From the NCBI GenBank assembly GCA_947475715.1, contig CANJNY010000044.1, positions 1 through 33,067 on the forward strand: a stretch of DNA of 33,067 nucleotides. Direction: 5' to 3'. This document shows positions 214 to 17,392 of this stretch, piece by piece. Position 1 is the stretch's first letter; each line of letters starts with the position of its first letter. The notes below the pieces were generated by a model that saw only the letters and a program-made list of their open reading frames with translations, searched no databases and was not told the origin of the DNA. The stretch is from Prolixibacteraceae bacterium. GTDB lineage: Bacteria; Bacteroidota; Bacteroidia; Bacteroidales; Prolixibacteraceae. Position numbers and translations under genes: made by a program.

Positions 214-317
214 CCCATTTGCAAATTAGTAAATTAGCACCTTGTCACATCATCGAATTGTCCCATTGTCGAATTATGGAATTGTCGAATTATGGAATTG
301 TCAAATCGTCAAATTAT
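214..317. repeat. Octamer tandem array (consensus CRAATTRT)
   Basis: Thirteen consecutive 8-bp units run from 214 to 317 without a phase break, for example CGAATTGT, CCCATTGT, CGAATTAT, GGAATTGT, CGAATTAT, GGAATTGT, CAAATCGT and CAAATTAT. Two 16-bp dimers at 268-283 and 284-299 are identical. The last units overlap the stop codon (309-311) and final Ile codons of the neighbouring minus-strand gene. Confidence 0.7.
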
Positions 318-1421
318 TTCATTCAGCTTCTGATAGATAGCCAGCAAGAAATCTCGGTTATCGGCAGTCAGGTAATGCATCTCTCCCCCCATCCGGTTAA
401 AGGTTTTGCAATAACGGAGGTAATAACCGGGATTATCCATCGGAGGTTCTCCGTCCTTATTCCAGTCCCATTCTGATTTGGCAAGGTCGACAATCAACAT
501 ATAATGGTTATCGATATGGCCCCCCTCCTGCATAATGAGATTTTGAGACATTGACAATGCTTTTTCAAAGATCATCGGTGACATCACTGCTGAACCGATA
601 GACATATAAACGCCATAGTCGAGATTGCTTACACTCTTTGCAAAACTCAGGAAATCGTTCTGAGCCACACGTCCAATGGCAGCACCATGATTCATCGGAT
701 GGTTGTAAATAATATCACAGCCAAACATAGGATGACCAGTAAATGGAATCCCAAGTTCAAAAGCCCGCGCTTGAACGGAATACCGTTTATAAGGGTGAGG
801 GATGCTCATGAATCCAGACTTAAGCTTAAATTTCTGAATCACACCTGCAAAATCAGCAGCTGCAGCAGCTTGCTCAGGATTCGTAGCAAGAAGATTAATT
901 ACTTCCTGATGTAAGGTTGAGATTTCAGGAATCTCTAATCCTTCCAAGGAGATCATCTTCCCTACCGACTCACCATAACCAAGCCCTTGATAAGCGCCAA
1001 CGATTAGTGCCAGATTGATATTAAAACCGGTATGGTCCCAGATTCCAAACTGTCCGAGTTCAACATTTTCGCGCACATCCTCGCTCGATTTTCCCTGGAA
1101 GGCAAACTCCCAGTCATGGATAATACCCGCGCCATTGGTGGAGAGGTGGGTTACCCAACCCTCTTCCATTAATGCAATCAAAGTTGGTGCCATCCCGTTT
1201 TTAATGGTATGGGCACCGAAAGTAAGCATTCGGGAACGCCCACCCTCGCGGGCCATACGGATACGGACCACTGTTTTCTCAATCAGGCTAACCCCTAACT
1301 CCGAGAGGTGTGCCGGTTTTTGAGTTACAGGGACGTGATCCTTCTCAATATAAACCTTGTTTTTCCGGTCGACCAGTTTTTTTACCGATAACCGGTCGCG
1401 GTCCAATTTTGGGTAGGGCAT
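309..1421 (-). CDS. Conserved protein of unknown function, possibly deoxyhypusine-synthase-like fold
   Basis: This is a 370-residue soluble protein with no signal peptide or membrane segment. I do not recognise the family with confidence. Visible features are a Gly/Asn-rich motif at about 94-105 (STNGAGIIHDWE), a GHPMFGCDIIYNHP segment at about 229-242, a MSIGSAVMSP segment at 273-282 and a QEGGHIDNH segment at 298-306. The pattern of a THLSTNGAG turn, a later IIYNHP segment and a serine-glycine loop vaguely resembles NAD-binding deoxyhypusine synthase homologs, which is an inference only. It starts 3 bp after the stop of the PfkB-HAD gene, so the two are surely co-transcribed and probably act in one pathway. 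The final codons come from an octamer repeat array. Confidence 0.8.
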   Translation of the reverse strand: MPYPKLDRDRLSVKKLVDRKNKVYIEKDHVPVTQKPAHLSELGVSLIEKTVVRIRMAREGGRSRMLTFGAHTIKNGMAPTLIALMEEGWVTHLSTNGAGIIHDWEFAFQGKSSEDVRENVELGQFGIWDHTGFNINLALIVGAYQGLGYGESVGKMISLEGLEIPEISTLHQEVINLLATNPEQAAAAADFAGVIQKFKLKSGFMSIPHPYKRYSVQARAFELGIPFTGHPMFGCDIIYNHPMNHGAAIGRVAQNDFLSFAKSVSNLDYGVYMSIGSAVMSPMIFEKALSMSQNLIMQEGGHIDNHYMLIVDLAKSEWDWNKDGEPPMDNPGYYLRYCKTFNRMGGEMHYLTADNRDFLLAIYQKLNEII

Positions 1422-1424
1422 AAT

Positions 1425-3329
1425 TTATGATTTAATATTCAATAAACTAAGTATTTGTGACACCTGCGAGAAGTCTGGGATGATTACATCAGCGCCCGCC
1501 TTGATCAGGCGAGTACGTTTACTTTCGTTAAGACCGTAACGACGCAGTTCATTGCTGGCAACTCCGATAGAGATTCCGCCCCTTTTGTTTGTTTCACGCA
1601 TTTCGACCGGTCCATCACCAAAAGTGGCAACCTTCCCCAATGCAGATTCCCCTATTGAATCGAGAATACGGTCAAGTACGATTTTCTTGGCCTCCTTCGT
1701 GATATCTCCCACTGCTCCGTAGATACGCCCCTCGAAGAGGTGATCATAACCTAATACTTTTGCCTCGCTCTTTACATCGGCTTCGTCGGTACCACTTGCC
1801 AAATAAAGTTTAACTCCTGCGGTATGAAGTTTCTCAAGAAATAATACGGCATTTTTAAGTGTAAAATCTTCAAGCGAGAGTTCACCATTGGCATATTTCA
1901 ATTCACGCTCTTTAACCATGATCAGCAACTCGTCGTTGTAAATCTGTTTGTATCCAAATTCGTCGAGGATTTTATCTTCGGGAACACAACCGAATTCACG
2001 GATCAGCTCAATCAACCCTTTCATCTGAACAAGGGTCTGAATTCCTGTCGTCTTATCGATAAACTCATCCGAGCGTTCTTTAACTCTTTGATACAATGCC
2101 TCGTCTGCTTCAAAATATTTGTCTCCCAGAATTGCCTTGATCATCATTGGTGCCATAATCAGTTCCCAACCCTCACGCAGGGTGGAAATAGTACCATCAT
2201 GATCGAAAATTGCATGTTCAATCTGTGGCTGATGTTCCCATTTGTTTACAATCTCAATTTCAGTACCCGGAATATATTTGGCATGACGTTTATCTTCCGC
2301 AAGTTCAGAGGAGAAAATAAAATCGGGCTCAGCACCCATTGCAAGGATCTCTTCAGGGGTTGCCGTTCCACACTGGAACAGTTTCTGAACCGTAACACCT
2401 GCCACAAACGATCCAATCTGAGCTGCGACATTCATCGAATAGCCGGCAGCCAATGACGATGCGGCACCTGCAAGATAACTATCACCTGCACCAACAGTAT
2501 CGACCTTTGACAAGATCATAAGTCCCGGAATTTCGGATATTCCATTCTCATCAATGGTCAGGGAACCTTTACTGCCCCTGGTGATAAAGAGGGGTTTCTG
2601 GTACCTTTTATAAAGTTCATTTGCTGAAGATACAATTTCAGCGTAAAGGACAACCTCGTCAGGTTTTTTATCCATTCCGCACAACCGTGCAGCTTCGGTG
2701 TCATTCATTTTGCGGATAGCACCTGTATAATAATCGTTAAAATTACGGCTATCGACGATGAAGGTTTTTTGAGGGAATTGTGCAATTACCTCCACCAACC
2801 TTTGTTTAAAATAATCGATGTGAATTCCTGATGGAACCTGCTGGTTGATGATAACGATATCGACTTCCGGAATTTCCTTAACCAGACTGGCAATTAAACG
2901 GTCAGCTGTCTCGATGGATAATTGGTTGTAGTTACCAAAGTCTACACGATTTAACTCCTTGTCATCGATATAAGGTTTTGCATAGGCATGGGTGTACCAG
3001 TTATCCTCCTGGATAAGAAGATTTCGCGGCTCAATACCGGTAGCTTTCATTACGCGGACCATTTCGGCACCAAAAGGATCGGTTCCGATCACACCAAAGG
3101 CGCGGATATCCTTAATATTCATTGCGGCCAGGTTATTGGTAACGTTACCGGCTCCGCCCAAAGAATATTTCTGGGTTCTGACAGGACGTGTAGCCTGGTT
3201 TGTTTCAACCGAAATTTCACTCATCGCCTCATCGATGAACCAATAGGCATCGAGACAGAAATCTCCGATAACGGCAATCTTAACGGCGCTGATATCGGCA
3301 AGGATTTTTTGTAGTTGTTCTTTTTTCAT
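1425..3329 (-). CDS. PfkB-family sugar kinase fused to HAD-type phosphatase
   Basis: This 634-residue protein has two catalytic domains. Residues 1-335 form a PfkB/ribokinase fold of RfaE (HldE kinase) type: a GDFCLDAYW start, the SLGGAGNVTNNLA motif at 56-68 and the anion hole/base VGAGDSYLAG at 279-288 (D283). Residues about 365-630 form a HAD domain: motif I IFDHDGT (D376, D378), motif II LASGTD (S512) and motif IV FGDGPVE (D572). Both domains look intact, so it may phosphorylate a sugar or sugar phosphate and remove a phosphate elsewhere on the same molecule. This parallels the HldE kinase and GmhB phosphatase steps of heptose activation. It is cytoplasmic. The substrate is not known. A roughly 880-bp repeat region separates it from the upstream gene, so it probably has its own promoter, though I found no clear -7 box. 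Confidence 0.9.
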   Translation of the reverse strand: MKKEQLQKILADISAVKIAVIGDFCLDAYWFIDEAMSEISVETNQATRPVRTQKYSLGGAGNVTNNLAAMNIKDIRAFGVIGTDPFGAEMVRVMKATGIEPRNLLIQEDNWYTHAYAKPYIDDKELNRVDFGNYNQLSIETADRLIASLVKEIPEVDIVIINQQVPSGIHIDYFKQRLVEVIAQFPQKTFIVDSRNFNDYYTGAIRKMNDTEAARLCGMDKKPDEVVLYAEIVSSANELYKRYQKPLFITRGSKGSLTIDENGISEIPGLMILSKVDTVGAGDSYLAGAASSLAAGYSMNVAAQIGSFVAGVTVQKLFQCGTATPEEILAMGAEPDFIFSSELAEDKRHAKYIPGTEIEIVNKWEHQPQIEHAIFDHDGTISTLREGWELIMAPMMIKAILGDKYFEADEALYQRVKERSDEFIDKTTGIQTLVQMKGLIELIREFGCVPEDKILDEFGYKQIYNDELLIMVKERELKYANGELSLEDFTLKNAVLFLEKLHTAGVKLYLASGTDEADVKSEAKVLGYDHLFEGRIYGAVGDITKEAKKIVLDRILDSIGESALGKVATFGDGPVEMRETNKRGGISIGVASNELRRYGLNESKRTRLIKAGADVIIPDFSQVSQILSLLNIKS

Positions 3330-4209: not shown

Positions 4210-5481
4210 TTATTTAGCCCTTTTACCGGCAGTCGGATAACAATAAATTGCCACATCTCCCGGTTCAACCTCTGTTGAATTTGCATACTCGGTTGCCGGG
4301 ATTAATGATCCGTCTTTGAGTACTTTTTTCACCGAATCATCGGTTGAAATAATAAGTTTCATAGCGTTTTTAAAATCCCTGTTAACGATCACCACAAAGG
4401 TGTTATTTCCATTTTCAAGTACAGAAACAACCGCGCCTTCCCCTATTGTTTCAAGAAGTTTAATTGGTTTGGGCAGCAGAGACAGCCGGGTTGTTTCACG
4501 AGGGATATCCATTCCCGTTTGGGCAACAGAGAGAATCTTTGCACCTAAAAACACCCCGGAGAGTTGCTGGATCTCATTACTTACCTTTTGCAAATGGTCG
4601 AAAACGATGGTCCTTTTTCCCTGCGCATCGAGCGGGGAACCGAAGCCGCGGAAACTCCAGTATTCAATTCCCTGTGCTCCATAAGCAAGGTCTGCATAGA
4701 TTTGCAACCTCAGGGAGGCAAGGGTTGGGATATCGTGTACGAAGGTTTTTTCAGGTTTATAGCTGTTATATAATTGGTAAAAATCATTTAGCGAGGGTTG
4801 AACGGCATCATCTGAGTAAGCCAAGTAGGAGGTGGTCAAGGCAAAAGCCCAGTATGGTCTCCCCTCGGTTTTATATTTATTGGCAAAGAATTCAAGATTC
4901 TCAAACCAACGGGGATGCAATCCACCATCCACAACCGGGTAAAAGTCGAAAGAGATATAGGGTGCCGGAAAAAGGTTATCAAACGAGTCAATATATTCTT
5001 TATAATCCTTTGTTCCGAACTTACTCTGATTTGAATTGATGTTCGGCAGAAGGTTTACAAAACAATAATGGTTTCCGTCTGCACTTTTAATTCGTTTTTG
5101 CCAGTCGGCCAATTCCTGAAACTGCACCTTGAAAGGTTCATCAGAGAGGTAATACCCTTCAAGTGCAGGGTGGTTTTTGAATCTGTTTACAGTTTTCTCA
5201 GGTTCAGCTTTTAGTTCCGGACATGAGATCATCAGCTTTATGCCTGCTTTTGCGGCAGCGTCCAGGGCAGTGGCAATTGCATCGGCACTTGAAAAGAAAG
5301 CGATATCAATATTCACCCCGACATCTTTAAGTTTTTTATAACTGGAGACAGACACCTCACTCTGGGCTATCCCTCCCCATGACATCACCGGAATGAGACC
5401 TGTTTGTTTCAACTTTTCCTGCGACATAGCTTGTCCCAATGAGGCAATTACAAGAATGCCAAGTACTATCAGATTTTTCAT
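4210..5481 (-). CDS. Exported TIM-barrel protein, paralog 1 of 4 (putative novel glycosidase)
   Basis: This 423-residue protein has a signal peptide (residues 1 to about 20, mature start near QEKL). The body looks like a (beta/alpha)8 barrel of about 290 residues: SCPEL (86-90), YYLSDEP (110-116, E115), SFDFYP (177-182, D179), WAFALTTS (211-218) and AYGAQGIEYW (266-275, E273). A roughly 110-residue beta-rich C-terminal domain follows, with an EGAVVSVLENGNNTFVVIVNR-like core and a VEPGDVAIY end, similar to GH42-type C-terminal domains. It differs from its three paralogs by an insertion of about 27 residues near 222-248. The start is 6 bp after the previous gene's stop, so it is the last gene of the mannosidase operon. 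The family is not recognised; a clan GH-A-like glycosidase is the best guess. Confidence 0.85.
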   Translation of the reverse strand: MKNLIVLGILVIASLGQAMSQEKLKQTGLIPVMSWGGIAQSEVSVSSYKKLKDVGVNIDIAFFSSADAIATALDAAAKAGIKLMISCPELKAEPEKTVNRFKNHPALEGYYLSDEPFKVQFQELADWQKRIKSADGNHYCFVNLLPNINSNQSKFGTKDYKEYIDSFDNLFPAPYISFDFYPVVDGGLHPRWFENLEFFANKYKTEGRPYWAFALTTSYLAYSDDAVQPSLNDFYQLYNSYKPEKTFVHDIPTLASLRLQIYADLAYGAQGIEYWSFRGFGSPLDAQGKRTIVFDHLQKVSNEIQQLSGVFLGAKILSVAQTGMDIPRETTRLSLLPKPIKLLETIGEGAVVSVLENGNNTFVVIVNRDFKNAMKLIISTDDSVKKVLKDGSLIPATEYANSTEVEPGDVAIYCYPTAGKRAK

Positions 5482-5487
5482 TCTTAG

Positions 5488-6684
5488 CTATTTTTTAGTA
5501 GGATACATATAAATTGCAACATCTCCCGGCTCAATTTCGGTAGTATTTGAATAGGCTGCGGACTTAACGACTGTTGCGTCCTTTAGTACCCGTTTTAATG
5601 ACTCATCGCCTAAGATTGTGATTGGAAGGCTCTTGTTCAGATCGCGGTTGACTACCATAAAGAAGGTGTTGGCGCCATTTTCAAGGATAGAAACCAGTGC
5701 CCCGGCACCTTCAGTCTCGAAGACTTTTATGGCTGACGGAAGTGTACTTAACTGCAATGTTCCTTTAGGAATCACAACACCGGTATGCTTAACGGAGACC
5801 ACTTTTGCACCTGCAAATACAGCTGCCAGATTTTGAATCTCATTATTTACTGCTTTAATTCGGTCATAAACCACCGTCCGTTTGCCGTCCAATCCGATTG
5901 GAGCACAACGCAATCCCGGAGACATCCAATAAGCCCAAAATTCCAGACCCTGGGCACCATAGGCCAGATTACTATATAACTGAAGTCTTAAAGCAGGAAT
6001 TGTCGGAATCGGATGGAGTTCATTATAGGAGCTTGCGAGTCCGAATGCCCAGAAAGGTTTGCCTAACTTCTTTGCTTCGGCAGAAAACACTTCCAGACCG
6101 GCATACCAGCTTTCGTGAATTCCCTCGGTGAGGATCGGATAAAAATCAAAGGAGAGAAGTTGTGATGGCACTTCGGTGGCAAAAGTATTGACATACTCAG
6201 CATAGTTAGCTGTTCCAAGTGCATCTGATTTTGTTGTATTGATGCTCGAAATCAGATTCACAAAACAGAAATGGTTTTTATCGATGGCTTCAATTCGTTT
6301 GGCCCAGGCAGCAAGATCTGCGAAATCTTTCCGGACGGGTTCGTCCCGAAGGAAATATCCTGCAAGAGCGGGATGGTTGATAAACCGTTTTACCGTCGTT
6401 TCGGGATCGCTTTTTAGCTCAGGACACGAGGTGACCATTTTTATTCCAACCTGCTGAGCCAGATCGAGCCCCTTTTGCATTGCATCGGCTGAGGCATAGT
6501 TTGAAAGATTCACATTGATCCCCATCTCCTTTAACTCGCGGAATCGTTCAGGATTGGATTCAGTTTCAGGAATCCCTGCCCATGCCATGATGGGGAGGGG
6601 CTTTGAAGATGTTAGTTTTTCCTGTGCACTAATCTTGAAAAAGATGATTAGTACCAATGTGCCAAGTAACAGTATTTTTCTCAT
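5488..6684 (-). CDS. Exported TIM-barrel protein, paralog 2 of 4
   Basis: This 398-residue protein has an N-terminal signal peptide (about 1-20). It shares the full family pattern: SCPEL at 86-90, FLRDEP with E115 at the same residue number as in paralog 1, SFDFYP (D180), WAFGLASS and AYGAQGLEFW (E248). The first-strand motif is AWAGI where paralog 1 has SWGGI, and the C-terminal domain ends EIEPGDVAIYMYP. It is the closest neighbour of paralog 1 (6-bp gap), and the shared beta-8 Glu suggests these two are a pair by local duplication. It lies 196 bp downstream of the GH92 gene; that gap holds a small TCCCTAAAGGGA hairpin and no gene. Confidence 0.85.
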   Translation of the reverse strand: MRKILLLGTLVLIIFFKISAQEKLTSSKPLPIMAWAGIPETESNPERFRELKEMGINVNLSNYASADAMQKGLDLAQQVGIKMVTSCPELKSDPETTVKRFINHPALAGYFLRDEPVRKDFADLAAWAKRIEAIDKNHFCFVNLISSINTTKSDALGTANYAEYVNTFATEVPSQLLSFDFYPILTEGIHESWYAGLEVFSAEAKKLGKPFWAFGLASSYNELHPIPTIPALRLQLYSNLAYGAQGLEFWAYWMSPGLRCAPIGLDGKRTVVYDRIKAVNNEIQNLAAVFAGAKVVSVKHTGVVIPKGTLQLSTLPSAIKVFETEGAGALVSILENGANTFFMVVNRDLNKSLPITILGDESLKRVLKDATVVKSAAYSNTTEIEPGDVAIYMYPTKK

Positions 6685-6880
6685 TCGTTAATTTAGTTAT
6701 CCGGTAACCCGGTAAAAGTTTTTAGTAAGCTTCTCAACATTGTTCAAAAGGGAACGGAACCCCACCTGATTTTGAAATTCAGTCCATATTATATCCCTAA
6801 AGGGACTATAAATAATTCACTAAAAATCCATTCATCATTTTATGCAAAACCTGAATCTATTAAATTCAAGGCCCAATAAA

Positions 6881-9205
6881 TTATTTCGTCATAGACGGTG
6901 GAGCAGCAGACTCCTCGCTGCCCCAGCTTTTATTTGGTTCTGCCCCCATAACAAAGACCAGTATGCCTCCGTTTTTAATACCCGAATGATCGAACCAGGG
7001 TTTATTCAACGGTTTACCATTCAAGGTTGCAGACTGAATATATTTGTTCGCTTTGGAGGAATTACGGCATTCGATCACGAATTTCTCTGCATTTCCAAAG
7101 GTTTTATCCAGATGGATCGTCACTTTACTAAAAAGCGGACTTCCAATGGAATAGATATTCTGGCCTGGAGCTACCGGATAAAAGCCCATTGAACTTAGGA
7201 CATACCACGCCGACATCTGCCCCATATCTTCATTTCCACATAATCCTGCCGGACCGGTAGTGTAGAGGTCATCCATTACTTTACGGGCCAAATCCTGGGT
7301 TTTCCATGGAGCACCTGCATAATTATACAAATATACCGTGTGATGACCAGGTTCGTTACCATGTGCGTACTGTCCAATCAAACCCGTTATATCGGGGACT
7401 GAACTTTTTATTTCAGAACTTGTCGTAAAAAGTGAATCCAGTCTTGCCACAAAATTTGGCCGTCCACCTGAGAGGTTAATTACCCCTTGCACATCATGAG
7501 GTACAAAGAGTGTATATTGCCATGCATTTGCCTCGGTATAATGACGATCCTTACCGTGTCCCACAAATTTGGGATCAAATGGATCAAGCCATTTTCCATT
7601 ACTGTCTTTTGGGCGTGCAAACCCGGTGGTTAGATCCATTACATTTTTATAATTTAAAGCCCTTTTCATAAAAAGTTCATAGTCATCCATCTTCCCTGCC
7701 TCTTTTGCCAACTGAGCAACGCACCAGTCATTGAAGGCATATTCAAGGGTTCTGGAAACAGATTCACGCACCTTGTCATAGGGTATATATCCGTATTTGA
7801 GATAATCCTGCAATCCCGTACGGCCTTCGGAACGATGATTTGAAGGAGGAGTCTCCATCGCATTTTTCCGCACCGCTTCGTAAGCTTTCTTTAAATCAAA
7901 ATTTTTAATCCCCTTTTTATAGGCATCTAAAATTGCAACAACAGGATGGTCTCCGATCATATCATTGGTATAGCTGTTTCCGAACTGCTGAGGAGTTGGC
8001 AGCCAGCCGCCCTGCAGGTATTGGGCAATCCAGGTATTGACTCCATCATTGCTTCTTGAGGGTTCTACCAGGGTTAAAAGAGGCATTTCTGCCCGGAAAG
8101 TATCCCAAAGTGAAAAATCACTCCGGTAGGTAAAACCATTGGTTGAATGCACTTTGTCATCCAATCCCATATATTTTCCATCCACATCGCTGAATGTAGC
8201 AGGGAAGAGTAAGGAGTGGTAAAGAGCGGTGTAGAAGGTTTCCATTTTTTGATTGACAGACTTAACATCACTGGTCTTGTCCATTTCAATTTCAATCCGT
8301 GACAAGGCTTTGTTCCACTTTGCCTTTGCGGACTCTTTAACCTGATCAAAGTTTCTTAGAAGTATCTCCTTTTCAAGGTTTAGACGAGCCTGGGCAATAC
8401 TGGTATAGGAGATTCCAACCTTCACCTCAACGGTTTCATTTTCAGAAGTAACATAATCGACCCATGCCCCAATCTGAGTTCCTGAGCCCTCTTTTGAATT
8501 TGGTTTAATATCTTTCTTATCCCATGTACCGGACGCTTTGAATGGTTTGCTGAATTTTGCAAAGAAATATACGTTTTGATTATCTACAAATCCATCAGAT
8601 CGGCGGTGCCCTTCAATTTCGGTATTGTTTATAATTTTAATCTGAGCACTTGTACACTTGTCGCCGATCCCATGATTCATATCGATTAAAATATGGGAGG
8701 CTTCCGATTTAGGAAAAGTATATTTATGGTATCCGGCACGTTCAGAAACGGTCAATTCTACTTTAATTCCATAATCCTTGAGCTTAACAGCATAGTAACC
8801 TGCAGAAGCGGCCTCTTCGGTATGTGAAAACTGTGAACGGTATCCTTCACCGGGTTTATCTTTAGTACCTGGTACAATTTTAAGTTCGCCGGTTGTGGGC
8901 ATGAACATAATATCCCCCCAGTCTCCCGCACCCATACCGCTGCGGTGGAGGTGACTGAAACCCATCACTGAGCTGTCACTGTAATGATATCCTGAGCACC
9001 AGTCCCAACCCTGGATGTCGGTATCGGGGCCAAGTTGAACCATTCCGCCCGGAAGAGCAGCTCCGGGAAATGTGTGACCATGAAAGTCGGTTCCCAGAAT
9101 AGGGTTCACATAACCGGCATAATTTACAGGAGCCAGGCCTGCCCGCAGAAGGGCGGTAGATGCAAACAGCATTGCAATTGCAAGAGTTCCAAATCGAATC
9201 AGCAT
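6881..9205 (-). CDS. GH92 exo-alpha-mannosidase
   Basis: This 774-residue exported protein has a signal peptide covering about residues 1-22. GH92 hallmarks are complete in the N-terminal half: NPILGTDFHGHTFPGA (34-49), QLGPDTDIQGWDWCSGYHY (57-75) and GFSHLHRSGMGAGD (82-95). The C-terminal half carries HGNEPGHH (615-622, with E618 as likely general acid), GNEDMGQMSAW (657-667, whose N/E/Q residues match the Ca2+ site I recall for the family) and an IGSPLF...IQSATLNGKP region. The family removes alpha-linked mannose with inversion and needs Ca2+. Near the end the sequence reads WFDHSGI (737-743), where many relatives have H-x-D-I, an odd point discussed separately. It sits between two pairs of the TIM-barrel paralogs in the same transcript. 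The linkage specificity cannot be read from the sequence. Confidence 0.95.
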   Translation of the reverse strand: MLIRFGTLAIAMLFASTALLRAGLAPVNYAGYVNPILGTDFHGHTFPGAALPGGMVQLGPDTDIQGWDWCSGYHYSDSSVMGFSHLHRSGMGAGDWGDIMFMPTTGELKIVPGTKDKPGEGYRSQFSHTEEAASAGYYAVKLKDYGIKVELTVSERAGYHKYTFPKSEASHILIDMNHGIGDKCTSAQIKIINNTEIEGHRRSDGFVDNQNVYFFAKFSKPFKASGTWDKKDIKPNSKEGSGTQIGAWVDYVTSENETVEVKVGISYTSIAQARLNLEKEILLRNFDQVKESAKAKWNKALSRIEIEMDKTSDVKSVNQKMETFYTALYHSLLFPATFSDVDGKYMGLDDKVHSTNGFTYRSDFSLWDTFRAEMPLLTLVEPSRSNDGVNTWIAQYLQGGWLPTPQQFGNSYTNDMIGDHPVVAILDAYKKGIKNFDLKKAYEAVRKNAMETPPSNHRSEGRTGLQDYLKYGYIPYDKVRESVSRTLEYAFNDWCVAQLAKEAGKMDDYELFMKRALNYKNVMDLTTGFARPKDSNGKWLDPFDPKFVGHGKDRHYTEANAWQYTLFVPHDVQGVINLSGGRPNFVARLDSLFTTSSEIKSSVPDITGLIGQYAHGNEPGHHTVYLYNYAGAPWKTQDLARKVMDDLYTTGPAGLCGNEDMGQMSAWYVLSSMGFYPVAPGQNIYSIGSPLFSKVTIHLDKTFGNAEKFVIECRNSSKANKYIQSATLNGKPLNKPWFDHSGIKNGGILVFVMGAEPNKSWGSEESAAPPSMTK

Positions 9206-9240
9206 ATTAATTTTAGTCTGTTAATTTATAATACTTTAAA

Positions 9241-10461
9241 CTACCTTCGTTCCGATGGAAACATAAACACTGAAATATCTCCCGGATCAAGTTCCAATGT
9301 ACTTTCATAGTTACTGGCAGGTACAAGTGTTCCGTCCTTAAGCACTTTTTTCACTGTTTCGTCGCCGTAAACGGTAAGGTTGATACTGTTGAGAAAATCC
9401 TTATTGACCACGACCAGAAAGGTGTTCTCCCCGTTTTCCAATACTGAAACCAATGCAGGAGCGCCGTTGGTATCCAAAACTTTTATTGGTTTTGGAAGTG
9501 TTGTCAGACGAATCGTTCCAACAGGAATCATCCCTTTGCCCGTATGCCGGACACTGATCGTCTTTGCCCCTAAGAAGAGAGGTGATAGAGCCTGGATTTC
9601 AGCGCTCATCTGTTTTACCCGATCAAAGACAACGGTCCTTTTGCCGGCAGCATTAATCGGTCCACCGCGGTCATCTTCCTGAGCTGCCGATGTGGGGGTT
9701 CTATCCCAATATTCATAATAGCAAATTCCCTGGGCTCCATACGCCAGGTTGCTAAACGACTGAAGTCTTAGGGCCGCAAGAGTCTGAGGCATGATGTGAT
9801 CGGCATCATAATTAGAGGTTAGTGCAAAGGCCCAAAAAGGTAATCCTGCCTTTTTAGATTCTGTTGAAATAAGCTCCAGATTCTGATACCAGCTCTTCGA
9901 TAAATGGTTTGCCATTACCGGATAGTAATCAAATGAGACAACCTGAACAGGTAATTCTTTTAAAAATTCGGATACAAAGGTTTTATAACTATCAGCCTTT
10001 AATAACGAAGGGCCCGCAAAATCGGGCCATATATTCACATAAAGAAGATGTTGCTTATCGACCGTTTGAATCCTCTTGCACCAGTTTTTTAATTCAGGGA
10101 AAAGTGACATTCCCGGCTCATCATAAATATAGTAACCACCCATTGCAGGATGATTCATAAATAAACCGGCGGTCTTTTCGGGTTCACTTTTTAATTCAGG
10201 ACATGAAAGCAGAAGTTTAATACCGGCCTTTTCTGCAAGATCAAGCCCTTTTTTCATTGCCGCGATATCCGGAAAATTATCGATAACCAGATTTATGCCT
10301 GACTCCTTAACCTCCAGGAAGCGGGTCAGATTGATCTGATTCATTGGAATAAAGGCGTAAGCATTAATGGGCATTACACCTTTGTTTGCAAGTTTTTCCT
10401 GAGCACAAAGTGACGCGGCAAGAAAAACAAAAAACGCTATCAATGAATTTATCCGGGTCAT
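9241..10461 (-). CDS. Exported TIM-barrel protein, paralog 3 of 4
   Basis: This 406-residue protein has a signal peptide ending near residue 20 (mature QEKL). Conserved family residues are SCPEL (86-90), YIYDEP (E115), SFDYYP (D178) and AYGAQGICYYEYW. The beta-8 position that is Glu in paralogs 1 and 2 is Cys here (C247), with another Glu three residues on (E250). Its first strand reads AYAFIP, and the beta-2 end (DNFPDIAAM) is the most divergent of the four, suggesting a different substrate pocket. With paralog 4 it shares an extra loop rich in Arg-Gly-Gly-Pro-Ile before AAGKR. The start lies 3 bp after the stop of paralog 4, and GH92 follows 35 bp later, so these genes are tightly coupled. 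Confidence 0.85.
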   Translation of the reverse strand: MTRINSLIAFFVFLAASLCAQEKLANKGVMPINAYAFIPMNQINLTRFLEVKESGINLVIDNFPDIAAMKKGLDLAEKAGIKLLLSCPELKSEPEKTAGLFMNHPAMGGYYIYDEPGMSLFPELKNWCKRIQTVDKQHLLYVNIWPDFAGPSLLKADSYKTFVSEFLKELPVQVVSFDYYPVMANHLSKSWYQNLELISTESKKAGLPFWAFALTSNYDADHIMPQTLAALRLQSFSNLAYGAQGICYYEYWDRTPTSAAQEDDRGGPINAAGKRTVVFDRVKQMSAEIQALSPLFLGAKTISVRHTGKGMIPVGTIRLTTLPKPIKVLDTNGAPALVSVLENGENTFLVVVNKDFLNSINLTVYGDETVKKVLKDGTLVPASNYESTLELDPGDISVFMFPSERR

Positions 10462-10464
10462 TCT

Positions 10465-11688
10465 TTATTTTTTTGCCGTTGGGAACATAAAGATTTCGGC
10501 ATCACCCGGGTCGAGTTCCATGGAGTTTTCATAAGCGCTTGCAGGGACTACTGTTCCATCTTTAAGCACTTTGTTCACCGATTCATCGCCAAATACGGTG
10601 ACATTAATACTGCTCAGAAAGTCCTTATTTACAATAACCAGAAAGGTATTCCCGCCGTTTTCCAATACCGAAACAAGTGCCGGAGCACCGTTTGTATCGA
10701 GAACTTTGATTTCCTTTGGAAGTGTTGTCAGGCGAATAGTTCCACCAGGAATCATCCCTTTACCGGTATGTCTTACAGAGACCACTTTTGAACCAAGAAA
10801 AACTCCCGAAAGGTTTTTAATCTCCTGGCTCATAAGTTTAACACGGTCATAGACAACGCTTCGTTTTCCGGCTGCTGTAATCGGAGCTCCGCGCTGGTCT
10901 TCACCGGATGGGGCATTCATTGAGGTGGCTGACCAGTAAGTGAAATATTGTATCCCCTGTGCACCGTAAGCCAGGTCACTGTAAACCTGAAGACGCATGG
11001 CCGCAAGGGTTTGCGGGGTCACATGATCATTATCGTAATTTGTAGTCAATGCAAATGCCCAGAAGGGCAAACCTGCCTTTACTGCTTCACCCGAAACCTG
11101 CTCAAGATTATTATACCAGGTTTTGGAAATACGATCCTTCATTATGGGATAATAGTCGAAGGAGATAAACTGGACGGGTATCTGTTTAATGTACTCCCTC
11201 ACATAGACCAAATAATCCTTGGTTCCAAGTTGTATTGAGTCGGCATGATTAGGGAAAAGATTCACGTAACAAAAATGTTTTTTGTCGATTGCCTTAATTT
11301 GTCTGCCCCATTCGCCAAGTCCTTTTAACTGACTTATTGAAGGTTCATCCTGAAGGTGATATCCCACCAGTGCGGGATGGTTCATGAACCGTTTAACCGT
11401 TTTCTCCGGATCAGTTCTTAATTCGGGACAGGAGATCACCATCTTAATCCCGGTCTTCTGTGCAACATCCAGTGCTTTCTGCACTTCTTCGGCATTTGAA
11501 TATCCGTTAAACTGATAAGTTATTCCTGCCTCCTTCATTTCGAGGTAACGTTCAACCGTTGTTTCACCGGATGGAATACTATACCAGGCAAGAATTGGGA
11601 TTTCACCGTTAGATGCCAATTTTTGCTGACCATTTGAAAGCCCGGCCGACAAACAGAATAGCAGAATGATAAAGAAATATTTTTTCAT
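10465..11688 (-). CDS. Exported TIM-barrel protein, paralog 4 of 4
   Basis: This 407-residue protein has a signal peptide (about 1-20, mature QQKL). Family landmarks are SCPEL (86-90), HLQDEP (E115), SFDYYP (D178), WAFALTTNYDNDH (210-222) and AYGAQGIQYFTYW with Gln247 at the beta-8 site. Its C-terminal domain (KEIKVLDTNGAPALVSVLEN and onward) is almost identical to that of paralog 3, which marks paralogs 3 and 4 as a recent duplication. It is separated from the MFS gene upstream by 102 bp containing three 15-bp GTGACT palindromes, which could form hairpins in the mRNA and lower or partition expression. The function is inferred, not known. Confidence 0.85.
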   Translation of the reverse strand: MKKYFFIILLFCLSAGLSNGQQKLASNGEIPILAWYSIPSGETTVERYLEMKEAGITYQFNGYSNAEEVQKALDVAQKTGIKMVISCPELRTDPEKTVKRFMNHPALVGYHLQDEPSISQLKGLGEWGRQIKAIDKKHFCYVNLFPNHADSIQLGTKDYLVYVREYIKQIPVQFISFDYYPIMKDRISKTWYNNLEQVSGEAVKAGLPFWAFALTTNYDNDHVTPQTLAAMRLQVYSDLAYGAQGIQYFTYWSATSMNAPSGEDQRGAPITAAGKRSVVYDRVKLMSQEIKNLSGVFLGSKVVSVRHTGKGMIPGGTIRLTTLPKEIKVLDTNGAPALVSVLENGGNTFLVIVNKDFLSSINVTVFGDESVNKVLKDGTVVPASAYENSMELDPGDAEIFMFPTAKK

Positions 11689-11790: not shown

Positions 11791-12951
11791 TTATGCAGCC
11801 TGGCTCTTTCTTACGAAGAAGGAGACCCAAAGGATATAAATCATACATCCGCCAACCACAAAAATGCTGGCAAGAGGACCGGAGGTTGAGCTTACATAAC
11901 CCATTACCAGTGGAATAAATGCGCCACCCGAAACAGACATAATCAACAATCCGGAGATCTCATTGGCACGTTCAGGCATTTTAGCCAATGCAAGAGAGAA
12001 AATAATCGGGAACATATTTCCAACGCCCAAGCCGATGATCATAATTGATGCATAAGCAACGGTATAACTCGGAGCGAGGAAAACGCCAACAACGCCAACC
12101 AAAGAGAGTATTGCGATTAAAAACAAGAAGAGACGAGGTTTGATCCAGTTCAGAATAATAGCTCCAAGGAAACGGGAGATTGTCTCACCTGCAAAGAAGA
12201 AACTGATTCCAAGAACAGCAGTATCCAAGCTAATTCCGTATTTTGACATCAATACGTTTGCAATATTTGTATTGATTGCAACTTCAGCGCCTACAATAAG
12301 AAAAATTGACAAAGCCATCAAAGCGACAAAACGGTTTTTTAGCAAACCAAGGCATGAGCCGAATGATGCCGGTTTACGGTCTGGTTTTGATTCTACAATC
12401 GGAGTCATTGAAAGCCATAGCGCGCCAAGTAAGGAGGTAATCCCATAGACTGCGAAAACCAGTTTCCAGTCGCCAAATGATCTGGCAAGATAGGATGCAA
12501 TAATTGGCCCTCCAAAAGAGACAATTGCCTTTACAAACTGTGAAGTAGACATGTAACTTGCCAGTTTATCCGACGGAGAAACATCCTGCAGCAGTGGGTT
12601 TGCAGAAACCTGAATAATCGTGTTTCCGATACCCAGCAGGATGAATGAAGCAAACATCATCGGGAAGGAATAATAGATAAACGGAAGACCCAAACCAATG
12701 GCCTGAATAACCATACCCAGATTCAACATATTGCGTTTGCCGATTTTATCCTGCAATACACCAGCAGGAACCCCAAGAATAAAGAACCACAGCAATACCA
12801 TCATGGGTAGGAATTGAGCCACAAAATCGGTAAGCTTAAAATCCTGCTTAACATACCCTGTTGCTACGCCGATAATATCGACAAAACCCATGATCACAAA
12901 GGAGAGCATCACAGGGACTAATTTATTCATCTGAACTTTTGAAGTACTCAT
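11791..12951 (-). CDS. MFS sugar permease, FucP/GlcP-like
   Basis: This 386-residue protein consists of hydrophobic helices throughout, about 12 membrane segments. Features fit the FHS (FucP/GlcP) sugar:H+ symporter group of the major facilitator superfamily: a short cytosolic N-terminus, an acidic residue in helix 1 (FVIMGFVDIIG), the loop motif PAGVLQDKIGKRN after helix 2 and an IIQVSANPLL helix 4. It is the only transporter in the window and lies between GH38 and the TIM-barrel genes, so it most likely imports the monosaccharide or small glycan released outside the cytoplasm. Mannose is the best guess from the neighbours. No SusC/SusD system accompanies it. Confidence 0.88.
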   Translation of the reverse strand: MSTSKVQMNKLVPVMLSFVIMGFVDIIGVATGYVKQDFKLTDFVAQFLPMMVLLWFFILGVPAGVLQDKIGKRNMLNLGMVIQAIGLGLPFIYYSFPMMFASFILLGIGNTIIQVSANPLLQDVSPSDKLASYMSTSQFVKAIVSFGGPIIASYLARSFGDWKLVFAVYGITSLLGALWLSMTPIVESKPDRKPASFGSCLGLLKNRFVALMALSIFLIVGAEVAINTNIANVLMSKYGISLDTAVLGISFFFAGETISRFLGAIILNWIKPRLFLFLIAILSLVGVVGVFLAPSYTVAYASIMIIGLGVGNMFPIIFSLALAKMPERANEISGLLIMSVSGGAFIPLVMGYVSSTSGPLASIFVVGGCMIYILWVSFFVRKSQAA

Positions 12952-13012: not shown

Positions 13013-15583
13013 TTATTCTTCGAGCAGATTGACCTGCTTAATTTTTCCTCCGATTTTACTGATCCGGAGTGTTTTGATCTCTGAAGGACGGAAACTCCCT
13101 GTCCACTTAAGATGGGCAAACTTCAGGTCGATTGCTGCAGTGGTCTGCTGACCTGTAGATTCAACCAGGCGAACGATGGTATCTTCACCGTTTTCAGCTT
13201 GCTTAACAGAAGTGACAATCACATTTGAGGAGTCAACGGCAAGGAAAGAGCCGGATTTCGGCAATTTACCACCATGTATACCCTGATAGGTAACCGGGGA
13301 CGGGGTCATGAATTCTTCGGCAATCCTCACGATATTACTTTTCTGCCAGCTCTCCTTATGAGGCACCAGTAACATACGCATAGTTTGTATTCCCTGATCC
13401 ATCCACATATATTCTTCTTTCAGATTGAGAACCTTAGGGTTATGATGGGCATAGACTGCAGAACGGGAAACAGAGATCCGAAGATCGTTGCCGGTAACGT
13501 TGTAACCATATTTTGCATCGTTGAGGACAGTTAGTCCGAATGAGGCCCCTGCACGGGTTCCACTCACATCGACCCAACGCTGACCCGGTTCTTCTTCGCC
13601 ATTAGTCACCCTTTCGATAAAACCATAACCTGTTTCGTAGGTTGATGTTGGAGATTCCACATTTACCGGGAATGAGAACTTAACCATTTTAAGATGTTCG
13701 TGCCAGTCAAGGGTCACCTTAGCCTCAAGATTTCGGCTACCTGCATAAAGTGTCCAGTCAATGGTGAGATTGGAAAGATTAAAGAAGGTAATTACACGGA
13801 TTGTCGCCCTAAGGGGTCCATTCTCCAGTACTTTGATTGTTGCATTTCCAAAAGAACCGATTTCATCGGCAAAGGTTTTGATGTCGTGGCTCCAGGTATC
13901 GCTGGTATCATTCAGGACAATGGCTTTACCACCACTCTCACCACCTGCAAATAGCTCCTTTCCACTCTCTTTATCGAACATGCCAAATGTTCCGTTTGCG
14001 TTAAAACGGACAGTTAGCAGCTCATTTTCCAAGGTATTATCTTTCGCACTGGCGGTGTTCTTATGGCTATAATCGCCACCATCCCAGAGCCTAAACTGCC
14101 TGTATCCCATAGCGGGTATCGTTGCATTGAAAATCAGTTTCCTCCGACTTCCTGCCTGTGATGATCCGAGGGTCCACTGATGGGCAAGCGGATTTCCGAG
14201 TTCGTCATCAACACGCGAAGATTTGTGCATTGTTCCCCAGTTCAGATCGTACTCAATATTTTGATTAACTTCCCAGGCATGTGAATTAAAGGCAATTATA
14301 TACTGAGAATCGGGATCCTCGGTAGGCACCTGTGATTCGAGTTTCTGAAGGGCAACATAATTTGACTGATTGGCAATATCGAGTGCATAACCATACCCTT
14401 GTGCGGCGGTGGCTGAATGATCCATGAGTGAGCTTCCAGCCAAACTATCGTGGAATTGCAGGAATAGTACCCTTTTCCAGGCAGCGGAAAACTCCCCTTT
14501 GGGATATTTTGCACCCCATCCCTCAGAGCCAATGGCTGCAATCTTCTCTGCAGCTATTAATGCGAATTCAGAGATACGGTTCCCCTTCTTGATAGCGGCT
14601 TCGGCGGTATAACAACCTCTTGCATGATGCTGTAAATCATCTTTTACAACAGGAATCTCCAGTTTTTTATCAGCACGAACTTCTTTGAAGAATAAATCAT
14701 GATTGCTAAAAAGAACCTTAGGAGCATCTTTTTCTTTCTGTATTTCGACTATTGAACGGATATTTTCCTTGGTTGCTCCGCCGCCATGATCACCTGCCCC
14801 AAAATATTGAACAAAACTTTTTGAAGACTGGTCTTTAAATCGTTCAATCGTTTGTACCATCCGGTTTCTGACTGATCCGCCATCCCCATAACTAATTGGA
14901 ATCCGGTAGGTAAGTACCTGTGTACCATCTGTTCCCTCCCACCAAAATAAATCGGAAGGGAGCGTTTTTTCGTGAGGCCCGGGACGCATAAACACGTAAC
15001 TATCCATTCCCTGTAATTTGAGGATCTGGGGTAAAGTGCTGGTATGTCCGAATGAGTCTGGATTAAATCCAATTTTAGCTTTGTGTCCGACCAGTTTTTG
15101 CAGGGTCAGCTGTCCGTAAAGCCCTTGTCGGACCATTGCTTCGCCACCCGGGATATTTACATCGGGTTCAATCCACCATCCTCCAATAATACTCCAGCGC
15201 CCTTCATCAATACGCTTGCGAATCTGAGCCATCATCTGAGGATCGTTGTCTGCAACCCACTGGTAAAAGAGTGCAGAACTGGAGGTGAATTTAAAGTCCG
15301 GATTTTCGTTCATCCGGTCAAGGTTAGACTTGAATGTACTGTAAACAATTGAGATCCCCTCTGCCATCGGCCAAAGCCAAACCGGGTCGATATGTCCATG
15401 TCCAACCATATGGGCTGTGTATTTATTGGCATCGGCAGGCCAGGGGACTACTTTTTTCACATCCTCCGCAAAGAGTTTTGTCGTGGAGGCCACGGCCAGC
15501 ACTGCTGAAGCTGTACCTGCACGGCCAATAAAAGATCTGCGGGAAATCTGATTATTTCCGTTTGGTTTTTTTTTCGAGTTCAT
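13013..15583 (-). CDS. GH38 alpha-mannosidase, Tat-exported
   Basis: This 856-residue protein begins with a twin-arginine signal, SRRSFIG at residues 14-20 followed by an Ala-rich hydrophobic stretch to about 39. The zinc/active-site motif GHGHIDPVWLWP (61-72) supplies H64 and D66, FNPDSFGH (173-180) supplies the likely nucleophile D176, and QFHDSLAG (375-382) supplies H377, matching the four zinc ligands of GH38 enzymes. C-terminal beta-sandwich domains (about 470-856) complete the normal family layout and length. GH38 retains configuration while cleaving alpha-mannosides. Tat export implies a folded, zinc-loaded enzyme in the periplasm or beyond. It lies 151 bp after the SIS gene and 61 bp before the MFS gene. 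Confidence 0.95.
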   Translation of the reverse strand: MNSKKKPNGNNQISRRSFIGRAGTASAVLAVASTTKLFAEDVKKVVPWPADANKYTAHMVGHGHIDPVWLWPMAEGISIVYSTFKSNLDRMNENPDFKFTSSSALFYQWVADNDPQMMAQIRKRIDEGRWSIIGGWWIEPDVNIPGGEAMVRQGLYGQLTLQKLVGHKAKIGFNPDSFGHTSTLPQILKLQGMDSYVFMRPGPHEKTLPSDLFWWEGTDGTQVLTYRIPISYGDGGSVRNRMVQTIERFKDQSSKSFVQYFGAGDHGGGATKENIRSIVEIQKEKDAPKVLFSNHDLFFKEVRADKKLEIPVVKDDLQHHARGCYTAEAAIKKGNRISEFALIAAEKIAAIGSEGWGAKYPKGEFSAAWKRVLFLQFHDSLAGSSLMDHSATAAQGYGYALDIANQSNYVALQKLESQVPTEDPDSQYIIAFNSHAWEVNQNIEYDLNWGTMHKSSRVDDELGNPLAHQWTLGSSQAGSRRKLIFNATIPAMGYRQFRLWDGGDYSHKNTASAKDNTLENELLTVRFNANGTFGMFDKESGKELFAGGESGGKAIVLNDTSDTWSHDIKTFADEIGSFGNATIKVLENGPLRATIRVITFFNLSNLTIDWTLYAGSRNLEAKVTLDWHEHLKMVKFSFPVNVESPTSTYETGYGFIERVTNGEEEPGQRWVDVSGTRAGASFGLTVLNDAKYGYNVTGNDLRISVSRSAVYAHHNPKVLNLKEEYMWMDQGIQTMRMLLVPHKESWQKSNIVRIAEEFMTPSPVTYQGIHGGKLPKSGSFLAVDSSNVIVTSVKQAENGEDTIVRLVESTGQQTTAAIDLKFAHLKWTGSFRPSEIKTLRISKIGGKIKQVNLLEE

Positions 15584-15734: not shown

Positions 15735-15748
15735 CTAAAGCGTTTTAG
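15735..15748. promoter_or_regulatory. Second LacI-type operator-like palindrome CTAAAGCGTTTTAG
   Basis: CTAAAGCGTTTTAG differs at a single base from the palindrome at the ROK promoter (CTAAATCGTTTTAG). It lies inside the last codons and stop of the SIS gene, 150 bp upstream of the GH38 start. LacI-family proteins often use auxiliary sites for looping. With only two sites, chance similarity cannot be excluded, and no -7 box is seen next to it. Confidence 0.3.
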
Positions 15749-16391
15749 CCTGATTTCCAAAGAAATGGTTCTCTACCATCAGGCAAAGAACATGATAAAC
15801 CGGCAAATGCAACTCCTGAACAAAGGCTGTCCGTCGCCCGGGGACATTAATCAGGATATCGCAATGGTTTTTCATTTTTCCGCCAGTCTCGCCGGTAAGA
15901 CCGACCACAACCATCTCTTTAGCTTTGGCAGTAATCAATGCATCGACAACATTTTGGGAGTTTCCTGAGCTGCTTATTCCAAGGATTATATCCCCGGGAT
16001 TTCCATAACCCACCACCTGCTGTGCAAAAATAAGATCTGCGTCTGTATCATTTGCCACTGCAGTTATCAGAGCGGAGTGGGCCGTGAGGGAAATAGCAGG
16101 TAAGGCATGCTGAAGTTTTTCGGCAAGATATGCACCTCTTTCGCCAGCTGATTCCAGCAGATTCTTTTTCAGGTCTCCACTGATTCGTCGCTTACTTTCA
16201 AAACCTTTCATCAACTCTCCCACGATATGATCCGAATCGGAACAACTTCCGCCATTTCCGCAAATCAATACCTTCCCGCCATTTTCGTAGCATTTGATCA
16301 GACTCGCGACTGTTTTAGCGATTTCATCTTTAACCACTAATAGTTGTGGATACCGGGTTACTAATTCTTCTAAAAAAAAGCTGTTTTCCAC
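15735..16391 (-). CDS. SIS-domain sugar-phosphate isomerase, GmhA-like
   Basis: This 218-residue cytoplasmic protein shows the SIS-domain phosphosugar site CGNGGSCSDSDHIVGELMKGF (44-64; E59 corresponds to the catalytic Glu of GmhA), ISSSGNSQNV (139-148) and VQELHLPVYH (191-200; H195 corresponds to the catalytic His). GmhA converts sedoheptulose 7-phosphate to heptose 7-phosphate. Length and motifs fit, but related SIS proteins act on other ketose phosphates, and here the gene follows a ROK kinase by 11 bp in a mannosidase operon. Isomerisation of an imported phosphorylated sugar is therefore equally possible. The 3' end carries an operator-like palindrome. Confidence 0.88.
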   Translation of the reverse strand: MENSFFLEELVTRYPQLLVVKDEIAKTVASLIKCYENGGKVLICGNGGSCSDSDHIVGELMKGFESKRRISGDLKKNLLESAGERGAYLAEKLQHALPAISLTAHSALITAVANDTDADLIFAQQVVGYGNPGDIILGISSSGNSQNVVDALITAKAKEMVVVGLTGETGGKMKNHCDILINVPGRRTAFVQELHLPVYHVLCLMVENHFFGNQAKTL

Positions 16392-16402: not shown

Positions 16403-17392
16403 TTAAAATTTATCTTCGTAAATAGCCACACATAAAGCAGCATAATCGCCGATTGCATCACCCAGTTCTGCCGGTTTAATCTGACAAACATCAACAGCCG
16501 AAGGGATTGCCTCAAGTTGTAACACTCTGTCTATGATTGGTTTAAAAAGGTCCACATTGCGGGCATAAATACTTCCGATAACAATACACTCAGGATTTAA
16601 GATATCAATCAGTATTGCCAAGCCCTGACCAAGGTACTCAGCAGAAATGCGAATAACCTCGTAGGCCACAGGATCACCTGCCTGAGCAGCGATCGCCACC
16701 ATTTTGGTATCGATCTGGTCAATCATCTCCATTGAAGGGCAGAAATCAACTTGTTGACCATTTGCCAATCGTGCTGTAACCATTGATTTTGCGAGCTGGG
16801 CAATTCCCCCACCGCTACAGAAACCCTCAAAAGAACCCGCTTTTCCAAATCCGACAGGACCTGTCTTATCGAGTCTGACATGGCCAACTTCACCACCCAG
16901 ATCATTCGTGCCACTATACAATCGCCCGTTTAAGATCAAACCGGAACCCATACCGGTGCCAAAGGTCAGAAAGATCATGTTTGAAGTTCCCTTCCCTGCC
17001 CCCATTAGCCATTCTGCCAGTGCGCATGCGTTGGCATCATTCTGAATAGCGACATCGACTCCAAACTCATCCCTGAATAGCTTTGTTATTGGAACACTAT
17101 CCCATCCCGGAAGGTTGGGTGGAGAATAAATCATCCCCGTTTTGGAATCGAGCGGACCACCACAACTGATTCCAATCCGTTTGAGATTAAAACCGGAAAA
17201 CTCATCCAGAAGCGTCCTTATATGACTCTGAAAATCAGCCAATATAGCCTCATATCCCCGTTCTACCCTTGTTTCAAAAAATATTTTCTTCTTTATTGAA
17301 AAAGAGGCATCACCTACTACGATGGCACATTTTGTTCCGCCAATATCGAGACCCAGATAGATATCTCCCTGAGTTTGATTAATTTCAGTCAT
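16403..17392 (-). CDS. ROK-family sugar kinase
   Basis: This 329-residue cytoplasmic kinase has the ATP phosphate loop GLDIGGTKC (14-22), the substrate/base motif QNDANACALAE (117-127; D119 as base), a second phosphate motif TFGTGMGSG (143-151) and GGEVGH (166-171; E168 and H171 contact the sugar). There is no DNA-binding domain, so it is an enzyme and not a repressor of the NagC/XylR kind. The usual ROK zinc motif with three cysteines after EVGH is missing; that stretch reads GPVGFGKAGSFEGFCSG. It is the first gene of the long minus-strand operon, directly behind a Bacteroidota promoter with a LacI-like operator. Likely substrates are mannose or another hexose released by the mannosidases. 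Confidence 0.92.
   Translation of the reverse strand: MTEINQTQGDIYLGLDIGGTKCAIVVGDASFSIKKKIFFETRVERGYEAILADFQSHIRTLLDEFSGFNLKRIGISCGGPLDSKTGMIYSPPNLPGWDSVPITKLFRDEFGVDVAIQNDANACALAEWLMGAGKGTSNMIFLTFGTGMGSGLILNGRLYSGTNDLGGEVGHVRLDKTGPVGFGKAGSFEGFCSGGGIAQLAKSMVTARLANGQQVDFCPSMEMIDQIDTKMVAIAAQAGDPVAYEVIRISAEYLGQGLAILIDILNPECIVIGSIYARNVDLFKPIIDRVLQLEAIPSAVDVCQIKPAELGDAIGDYAALCVAIYEDKF

Follow-up and report, generated by a model that had tools for sequence, protein, structure and literature searches.

A conserved branch of GH42-related barrel proteins, mostly from Bacteroidota, with an altered active site

The window analysed here, a stretch of 33,067 nucleotides from a Prolixibacteraceae bacterium (contig CANJNY010000044.1, positions 1 to 33,067), carries four genes for paralogous proteins, P0001 to P0004 (P1 to P4), and sequence comparison indicates that these form a real, conserved and catalytically altered branch near glycoside hydrolase family 42 (GH42). 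The change in the active site is well supported by the alignments, in which an Asp precedes the presumed acid/base Glu and no Glu stands at the place of the nucleophile on strand 7. Mechanism and substrate are proposed by analogy: we tentatively favour, at somewhat below an even chance, the reading that P1 to P4 are secreted glycosidases of an unclassified GH42-related group, in which an Asp-Glu (D-E) pair would act on a 2-acetamido or 2-amino sugar by substrate-assisted catalysis. The four genes are as follows.

4210..5481, minus strand: P0001 (P1), family member of 423 aa, sister group of P2, with about 25 extra residues after strand 7
5488..6684, minus strand: P0002 (P2), family member of 398 aa, with Gly at the nucleophile place
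9241..10461, minus strand: P0003 (P3), family member of 406 aa, sister group of P4, with clade-specific E250 and R254 (P4 numbering); Pfam GH42 25 bits
10465..11688, minus strand: P0004 (P4), family member of 407 aa, with the D114-E115 pair and A213 at the GH42 nucleophile place; Pfam GH42 28.2 bits over 171-292

P1 to P4 can be aligned end to end, with 48-58% identity to P0004, and each has a hydrophobic signal-like segment at its N-terminus (judged by eye). The open reading frames (ORFs) and the alignment agree with an earlier note on this DNA, which had described four exported paralogues of 398-423 residues with shared motifs. Common to all four are SCPEL (86-90), DEP with Glu at 115, SFD[FY]YP, WAF[AG]L and AYGAQG; the Asp of SFD[FY]YP is residue 178 in P0004 and P0003, 180 in P0002 and 179 in P0001. 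Neither Glu nor Asp occurs on strand 7 in any of the four, where the sequence is PFWAFALTT or similar.

From 99 extracted proteins, 89 members were retained after setting a minimum length of 365 aa and removing L062 and L036:3-1280; in its own alignment, L062 keeps D-E-P and has Ile at 213. D114, E115, P116, D178 and Y180 (P0004 numbering) are present in 89/89 members; no acidic residue other than D114, E115 and D178 is invariant in this way. At position 213, Ala was found in 74 members, Thr in six, and Gly, Val and Ile in three each. Because the shared motif pattern is conserved in 89 members, chance is excluded as its source. Seven members found later, 44-58% identical to the nearest of the 89 (ten rows minus two window rows and L147, which is identical to L015), have the D-E pair in 7/7, Ala (6) or Ile (1) at 213, and P116 and E89 in 6/7 each. 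The earlier note had considered E89 as a catalytic residue; this was rejected, since only 81/89 members have it and the other eight carry K, G, A, S, R, D or N. A like pattern was seen in longer, weakly matching proteins, such as L063 with ISDEPSA and Pro-Gln at the strand-7 place, and the change may extend to a wider group.

Absence of the nucleophile from every member examined would also be expected if the proteins no longer catalysed a reaction and served, as binding proteins or pseudoenzymes, to present glycans to the GH92 and GH38 enzymes encoded in the same cluster. However, the members reach down to 27% identity to P0004 with D114 and E115 invariant throughout, which is a patterned change and not decay, and we consider such a role very unlikely.

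An AlphaFold2 model of P0004, built from 53 aligned members, shows a (beta/alpha)8 barrel followed by a C-terminal beta domain from residue 301, with a mean predicted local distance difference test score of 95.5 and a predicted template modelling score of 0.92, in line with the TIM barrel and C-terminal beta domain foreseen from the sequence. The barrel strands lie at 32-34, 58-60, 82-85, 107-114, 139-144, 175-177, 209-214 and 245-249. Strand 4 (107-114) ends directly before E115, and strand 7 (209-214, WAFAL) holds no Glu, as the earlier strand assignment had it. Among the best 50 of 1652 Foldseek matches in the PDB, the top match is GH42 5e9a (E 8.2e-12, template modelling score 0.62 by query length), followed by GH39, GH164, GH51, GH5 and GH158 structures, similar barrels and one putative fucosidase, 4h41. 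The predicted structure lacks the middle domain of the three-domain GH42 architecture; within the 407 aa of P0004, the beta domain comes directly after the barrel.

In Pfam, GH42 (cut-off 21) is exceeded by P0004 with 28.2 bits and P0003 with 25 bits, each only over the C-terminal half of the barrel. Below threshold, P0002 matches GH42 with 11.9 bits and P0001 matches DUF4434 with 17.9 bits (cut-off 30) around the DEP motif. NCBIfam gave nothing above its cut-offs for P1 to P4, and searches of Pfam, NCBIfam and the PDB found neither a curated family nor a full-length solved relative by sequence. Nevertheless, 38/53 members match Pfam GH42 at E <= 0.1, and a PDB sequence search with the 53-member profile ranked GH42 chains on top (3tts, E 4.9e-7; 5e9a, E 5.4e-7). 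A profile-profile comparison (hhalign) with ten proteins scoring 118-462 bits to the Pfam GH42 model gave a probability of 98.8% and an E-value of 7.3e-17 over residues 20-303. The view that the family is new and cannot be placed therefore holds as far as curated Pfam and NCBIfam families go, but the family is placeable near GH42. As judged by these searches, its best reading is an unclassified, GH42-related family with a clan GH-A fold.

The profile-profile alignment puts E115 in the column of the acid/base Glu and D114 in the one before; SFDxYP is matched to SWDxYP, and A213 to the L092 nucleophile Glu. The acid/base is preceded by Asn in 5/10 and Ser in 5/10 of the GH42-model proteins, and by Asp in 89/89 family members. 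These alignments are consistent with the earlier proposal that E115 is the likely acid/base. The strand-7 Glu stands in the expected column in 6/10 GH42-model proteins and one or two columns off in 4/10, which shows the extent to which single alignment columns may slip. In the alignment with 5e9a, the chain residues opposite E115 and A213 are 182 and 339 (the latter counted by hand), an identical offset of 25 from the acid/base Glu157 and the nucleophile Glu314 given for 5e9a in passages of PMC7105311.

GH42 (5e9a, 3tts) and the family thus share barrel similarity, the acid/base Glu after strand 4, SWDxYP on strand 6 and a GA-rich run into strand 8, whereas the family differs in the Asp before the acid/base, the lack of a strand-7 nucleophile and the lack of the middle (trimerisation) domain. 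For clan GH-A, the fold and the strand-4 Glu are present and the strand-7 Glu is not. The GH164 beta-mannosidase Bs164, also GH42-like in its barrel and high in the Foldseek ranking, differs in keeping both catalytic Glu residues, 160 and 297, as stated in passages of PMC7105311. DUF4434 matches 13/53 members at E <= 0.1; two genes above its cut-off lie on contig C99 of the same genome.

That P1 to P4 could be ordinary GH42 beta-galactosidases, their missing Glu an alignment error, draws on the two window proteins above the Pfam cut-off and on the column slippage seen in 4/10 GH42-model proteins. Yet the aligned column holds A, T, G, V or I in all 89 and all seven later members, no acidic residue is available on strand 7 of the window proteins, two methods place the nucleophile at 213, and the GH42 middle domain is absent from the model. 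This explanation fails on two tested features, and we regard it as extremely improbable.

The family is sparse. A profile scan of species genomes, which is not a census, yielded at least 56 loci, mostly in Bacteroidota, and among the matches listed are single loci outside this main group in Acidobacteria, Planctomycetaceae, Verrucomicrobiia, Anaerolineales and Candidatus Zipacnadia, of which the latter two are distant. Of 395 genomes drawn from the phylum, nine had a match at E <= 0.001 and two fell below 1e-20, namely the genome itself and one distant member; in a draw of 295 genomes from the order, 30 matched at E <= 0.001 and nine, including the genome itself, fell below 1e-50.

In a maximum-likelihood tree, each paralogue forms a separate clade: P1 (15 rows, support 100/100), P2 (15 rows, 100/99), P3 (8 rows, 100/100) and P4 (28 rows, 97/91). 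P1 and P2 are sisters (100/96), as are P3 and P4 (100/99). Several residues near the strand ends are fixed by clade: 113 is S/G/A in P1, R/K in P2, Y in P3 and I/Q/M in P4; 249 is W in P1 and P2, Y in P3 and F in P4; E250 occurs in 8/8 P3 rows and R252 in 14/15 P1 rows. The P2-P1 pair occurs together in L041 (Acidobacteria) and L048 (Cytophagaceae), with long-branch or composition warnings on part of these rows. The paralogues are four old orthologous groups whose duplications are old and whose gene order is largely kept, suggesting distinct roles of P1 to P4. In two draft genomes the P4 gene is split over two frames (L032:9998-11192 and L046:9986-11034), by assembly error or as a broken copy.

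As the strand-7 Glu is absent, the double displacement of clan GH-A is unavailable to these proteins. In the mechanism we favour, E115 would act as general acid/base and the substrate's own 2-acetamido group would stand in for the missing nucleophile (substrate-assisted catalysis), with the small or aliphatic residue at the nucleophile place giving space for it. Likely substrates would be 2-acetamido (or 2-amino) sugars in beta linkage, within a branched glycan that, besides these, holds linkages cut by GH92 and GH38 enzymes, and the four paralogues, which share the catalytic pair and differ around it, would probably act on different linkages of one glycan.

GH20 enzymes have an adjacent D-E pair in a TIM barrel, and neither GH123 nor GH20 is known to have a strand-7 Glu nucleophile; the adjacent pair of this mechanism is found as D114-E115 in 89/89 members. 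Passages of PMC11087588 describe the same arrangement in the TIM barrel of GH123, where the Asp of the DE motif stabilises the 2-acetamido group. The archaeal glucosaminidase GlmA, a GH35/GH42-like enzyme, has a D-E motif on a barrel resembling that of GH42, and the C2 amine is bound by its Asp178 (passages of PMC6566704). By analogy, these precedents and the small residue at 213 would favour substrate assistance on a 2-acetamido sugar.

An inverting glycosidase, an option raised in the earlier note along with non-hydrolytic action, is a further candidate, with E115 as the acid and D178 (or D114) as the base activating a water molecule where the nucleophile Glu would otherwise stand; these three are the sole acidic residues in 89/89 members. 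D178 and Y180, however, align with the Asp and Tyr of GH42 SWDxYP, and their conservation may have an older cause. No family of clan GH-A is known to invert, and we regard inversion as unlikely. The earlier suggestion of the Asp at 178-180 as a new catalytic nucleophile is disfavoured, since this residue aligns with an Asp of GH42 enzymes in which two other residues, both Glu, catalyse.

The genes around the family also bear on the substrate. GH92 lies between the two family pairs and GH38 lies upstream in the reading direction, as had been noted before, and the cluster further includes the following genes.

309..1421, minus strand: GSU2086-family protein (NF052581 321.6 bits, cut-off 250)
1425..3329, minus strand: fusion protein of a PfkB kinase, closest to HldE domain I (below the rfaE_dom_I cut-off), and a HAD phosphatase
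6881..9205, minus strand: GH92 glycosidase (Pfam GH92 612.5 bits, TIGR01180 724.8 bits)
11791..12951, minus strand: MFS sugar transporter, GluP/FucP-like (Pfam MFS_1 122.8 bits; TIGR01272 below cut-off)
13013..15583, minus strand: GH38 alpha-mannosidase-like protein (Pfam GH38N 211.7 bits)
15735..16391, minus strand: SIS-domain protein similar to the phosphoheptose isomerase GmhA (below the gmhA cut-off), in which the H-x3-E and Q-x7-H motifs are retained
16403..17392, minus strand: ROK-family sugar kinase (Pfam ROK 175.9 bits)

Neighbours were counted at 50% identity or more in 34 well-flanked loci, which have at least 3.5 kb before and at least 3 kb after the family genes. Relatives of the SIS and PfkB/HAD genes both occur in 12/34; the others, all inside the same 12, are MFS (12), ROK (11), GH92 (9), GH38 (8), GSU2086 (7) and LacI (6). 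The remaining 22 have none of the eight cluster genes at this identity, although two of them (L020, L053) have GH92 matches of 36-43%.

The SIS protein matches phosphoheptose isomerases best (PDB E 3.7e-37; gmhA 151 bits against a cut-off of 209). The PfkB half is nearest to HldE domain I (128 bits, cut-off 345). Within the genome, the gmhA model matches the SIS protein alone, and the kinase scores highest of six rfaE matches; none of these reaches its cut-off. In Geobacter, GSU2086 sits between GSU2085 hldE and GSU2087 gmhA, according to part of PMC5585712. These data suggest a manno-configured sugar, possibly a heptose, as the one that the cluster handles; the GmhA-like isomerase, PfkB/HAD and GSU2086 genes are a possible heptose or mannose entry route within a glycan-degradation cluster. 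The SIS protein need not be the genome's only mannose-6-phosphate isomerase, as a separate type I gene is present (46.3 bits, cut-off 22). GSU2086 proved weak as a general marker of heptose genes: over about 1.5 kb per side (less in L134), a BLAST relative of the window SIS or PfkB protein (E <= 1e-4) was found in 0/13 other above-cut-off loci, and among eight neighbour ORFs scanned from 5/13 of these loci, one had heptosyltransferase-like matches below cut-off.

This neighbourhood also speaks for a retaining enzyme acting on hexosides or heptosides without an enzymic nucleophile, through the 2-hydroxyl of a mannose- or heptose-type sugar or through a residue from elsewhere. The epoxide route via the 2-hydroxyl is that of GH99. 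P4 stands beside SIS (GmhA-like), MFS and PfkB/HAD genes in 12/34 well-flanked loci, with ROK in 11 of those 12; one such cluster, L025, has ROK, SIS, MFS, P4 and PfkB/HAD and lacks any GH92 or GH38 relative of at least 50% identity; and a neighbour in the Planctomycetaceae locus matches GH99 below threshold (19.3 bits, cut-off 33). On the other hand, the strand-4 D-E pair is not known to be the GH99 arrangement, and none of the eight cluster genes tested occurs in 22/34 loci. We consider this route rather unlikely.

Several points weigh against substrate assistance on an amino sugar in P1 to P4. GlmA, as described in passages of PMC6566704, retains its strand-7 nucleophile Glu347 and does not cleave N-acetylglucosamine (GlcNAc) dimers; the D-E pair alone is thus no proof of substrate assistance. 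No profile similarity or homology to GH123 was found with small profiles of only three and two sequences (hhalign probability 0.6% and 0.3%), and no GH20 or GH123 structure appears among the best 50 Foldseek matches. The strand-4 piece of the 5e9a alignment is weak by itself (5.2 bits, i-Evalue 63), the placement resting there on the profile-profile alignment. P4's most constant neighbours, the GmhA-like isomerase, ROK kinase and PfkB/HAD protein, fit mannose or heptose better than GlcNAc, and other loci pair the family with GH78-like, GH29-like, GH2 or GH127 genes. The manno-configured or heptose indication argues against a pure GlcNAc pathway and stands in tension with the amino-sugar reading.

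The other family neighbours include SusD (L049), Alpha_L_fucos (L057), DUF4838 (L053, L057), GH2 (L032, L043), GH78-like (L040, L042, L043, L056) and GH127 (L056) genes. The GH2 protein of L032 (2449-5097, read away from the cluster) has an exo-beta-D-glucosaminidase Ig-fold domain (91.5 bits, cut-off 26.3) and may be relevant to the amino-sugar reading; ORFs of roughly 900 aa lie on the equivalent side in L025, L028 and L029. An amidohydrolase-family gene stands between MFS and P4 in L025 (8625-9995), with ORFs of similar length there in L011, L015, L028 and L032. After GSU2086, L033:7233-10787 holds GlcNAc 2-epimerase-like, sodium-solute symporter and 3-keto-disaccharide hydrolase genes, and ORFs of comparable size follow in L010, L011 and L035. 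In two Chitinophagaceae loci, proteins with DUF4838 and a GH67 N-terminal domain are encoded near family members (L057:15831-17717 and L053:11252-13138); L057 also has SusC/D-sized ORFs besides its Alpha_L_fucos protein.

Elsewhere in the window, a GH20-like protein (23920-26556) has a marginal GH20 catalytic match (24 bits, cut-off 22.3) and keeps a D-E pair (HVNHDELG, residues 715-716), and a GH78 protein (26747-30151) carries chitobiase C-terminal-like and PA14 domains; GH78-like ORFs recur in L011, L015, L040, L042, L043, L047, L055 and L056. The GH38 protein scores above the cut-off for a twin-arginine translocation (Tat) signal (18.8 against 16.7 bits), and a GFO/IDH/MocA oxidoreductase (21108-22478) has a Tat-signal score of 17 and a glycoside 3-dehydrogenase match far under cut-off (97 of 750 bits).

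A more far-reaching scenario, which we hold to be quite improbable, is that substrate-assisted catalysis originated anew within clan GH-A when an enzyme of the GH42 type, deprived of its nucleophile, came to use the 2-acetamido group of its substrate; four specialised paralogues would then have arisen, in a cluster by which an unusual sugar, manno-configured or heptose-like, enters a GmhA-like isomerase route. Our partial coverage of the literature on DUF4434, nucleophile-less GH42 relatives, substrate assistance in clan GH-A and heptose catabolism, which is no proof of absence, turned up no paper on the family. Clan GH-A is among the best-understood glycosidase groups and is defined by two catalytic Glu residues. 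A conserved branch in which one of them is systematically gone and an Asp stands beside the other is a natural test of a mechanism switch in retaining double-displacement enzymes, and would add an unassigned enzyme activity to the glycan-degrading clusters of lake, soil and gut Bacteroidota.

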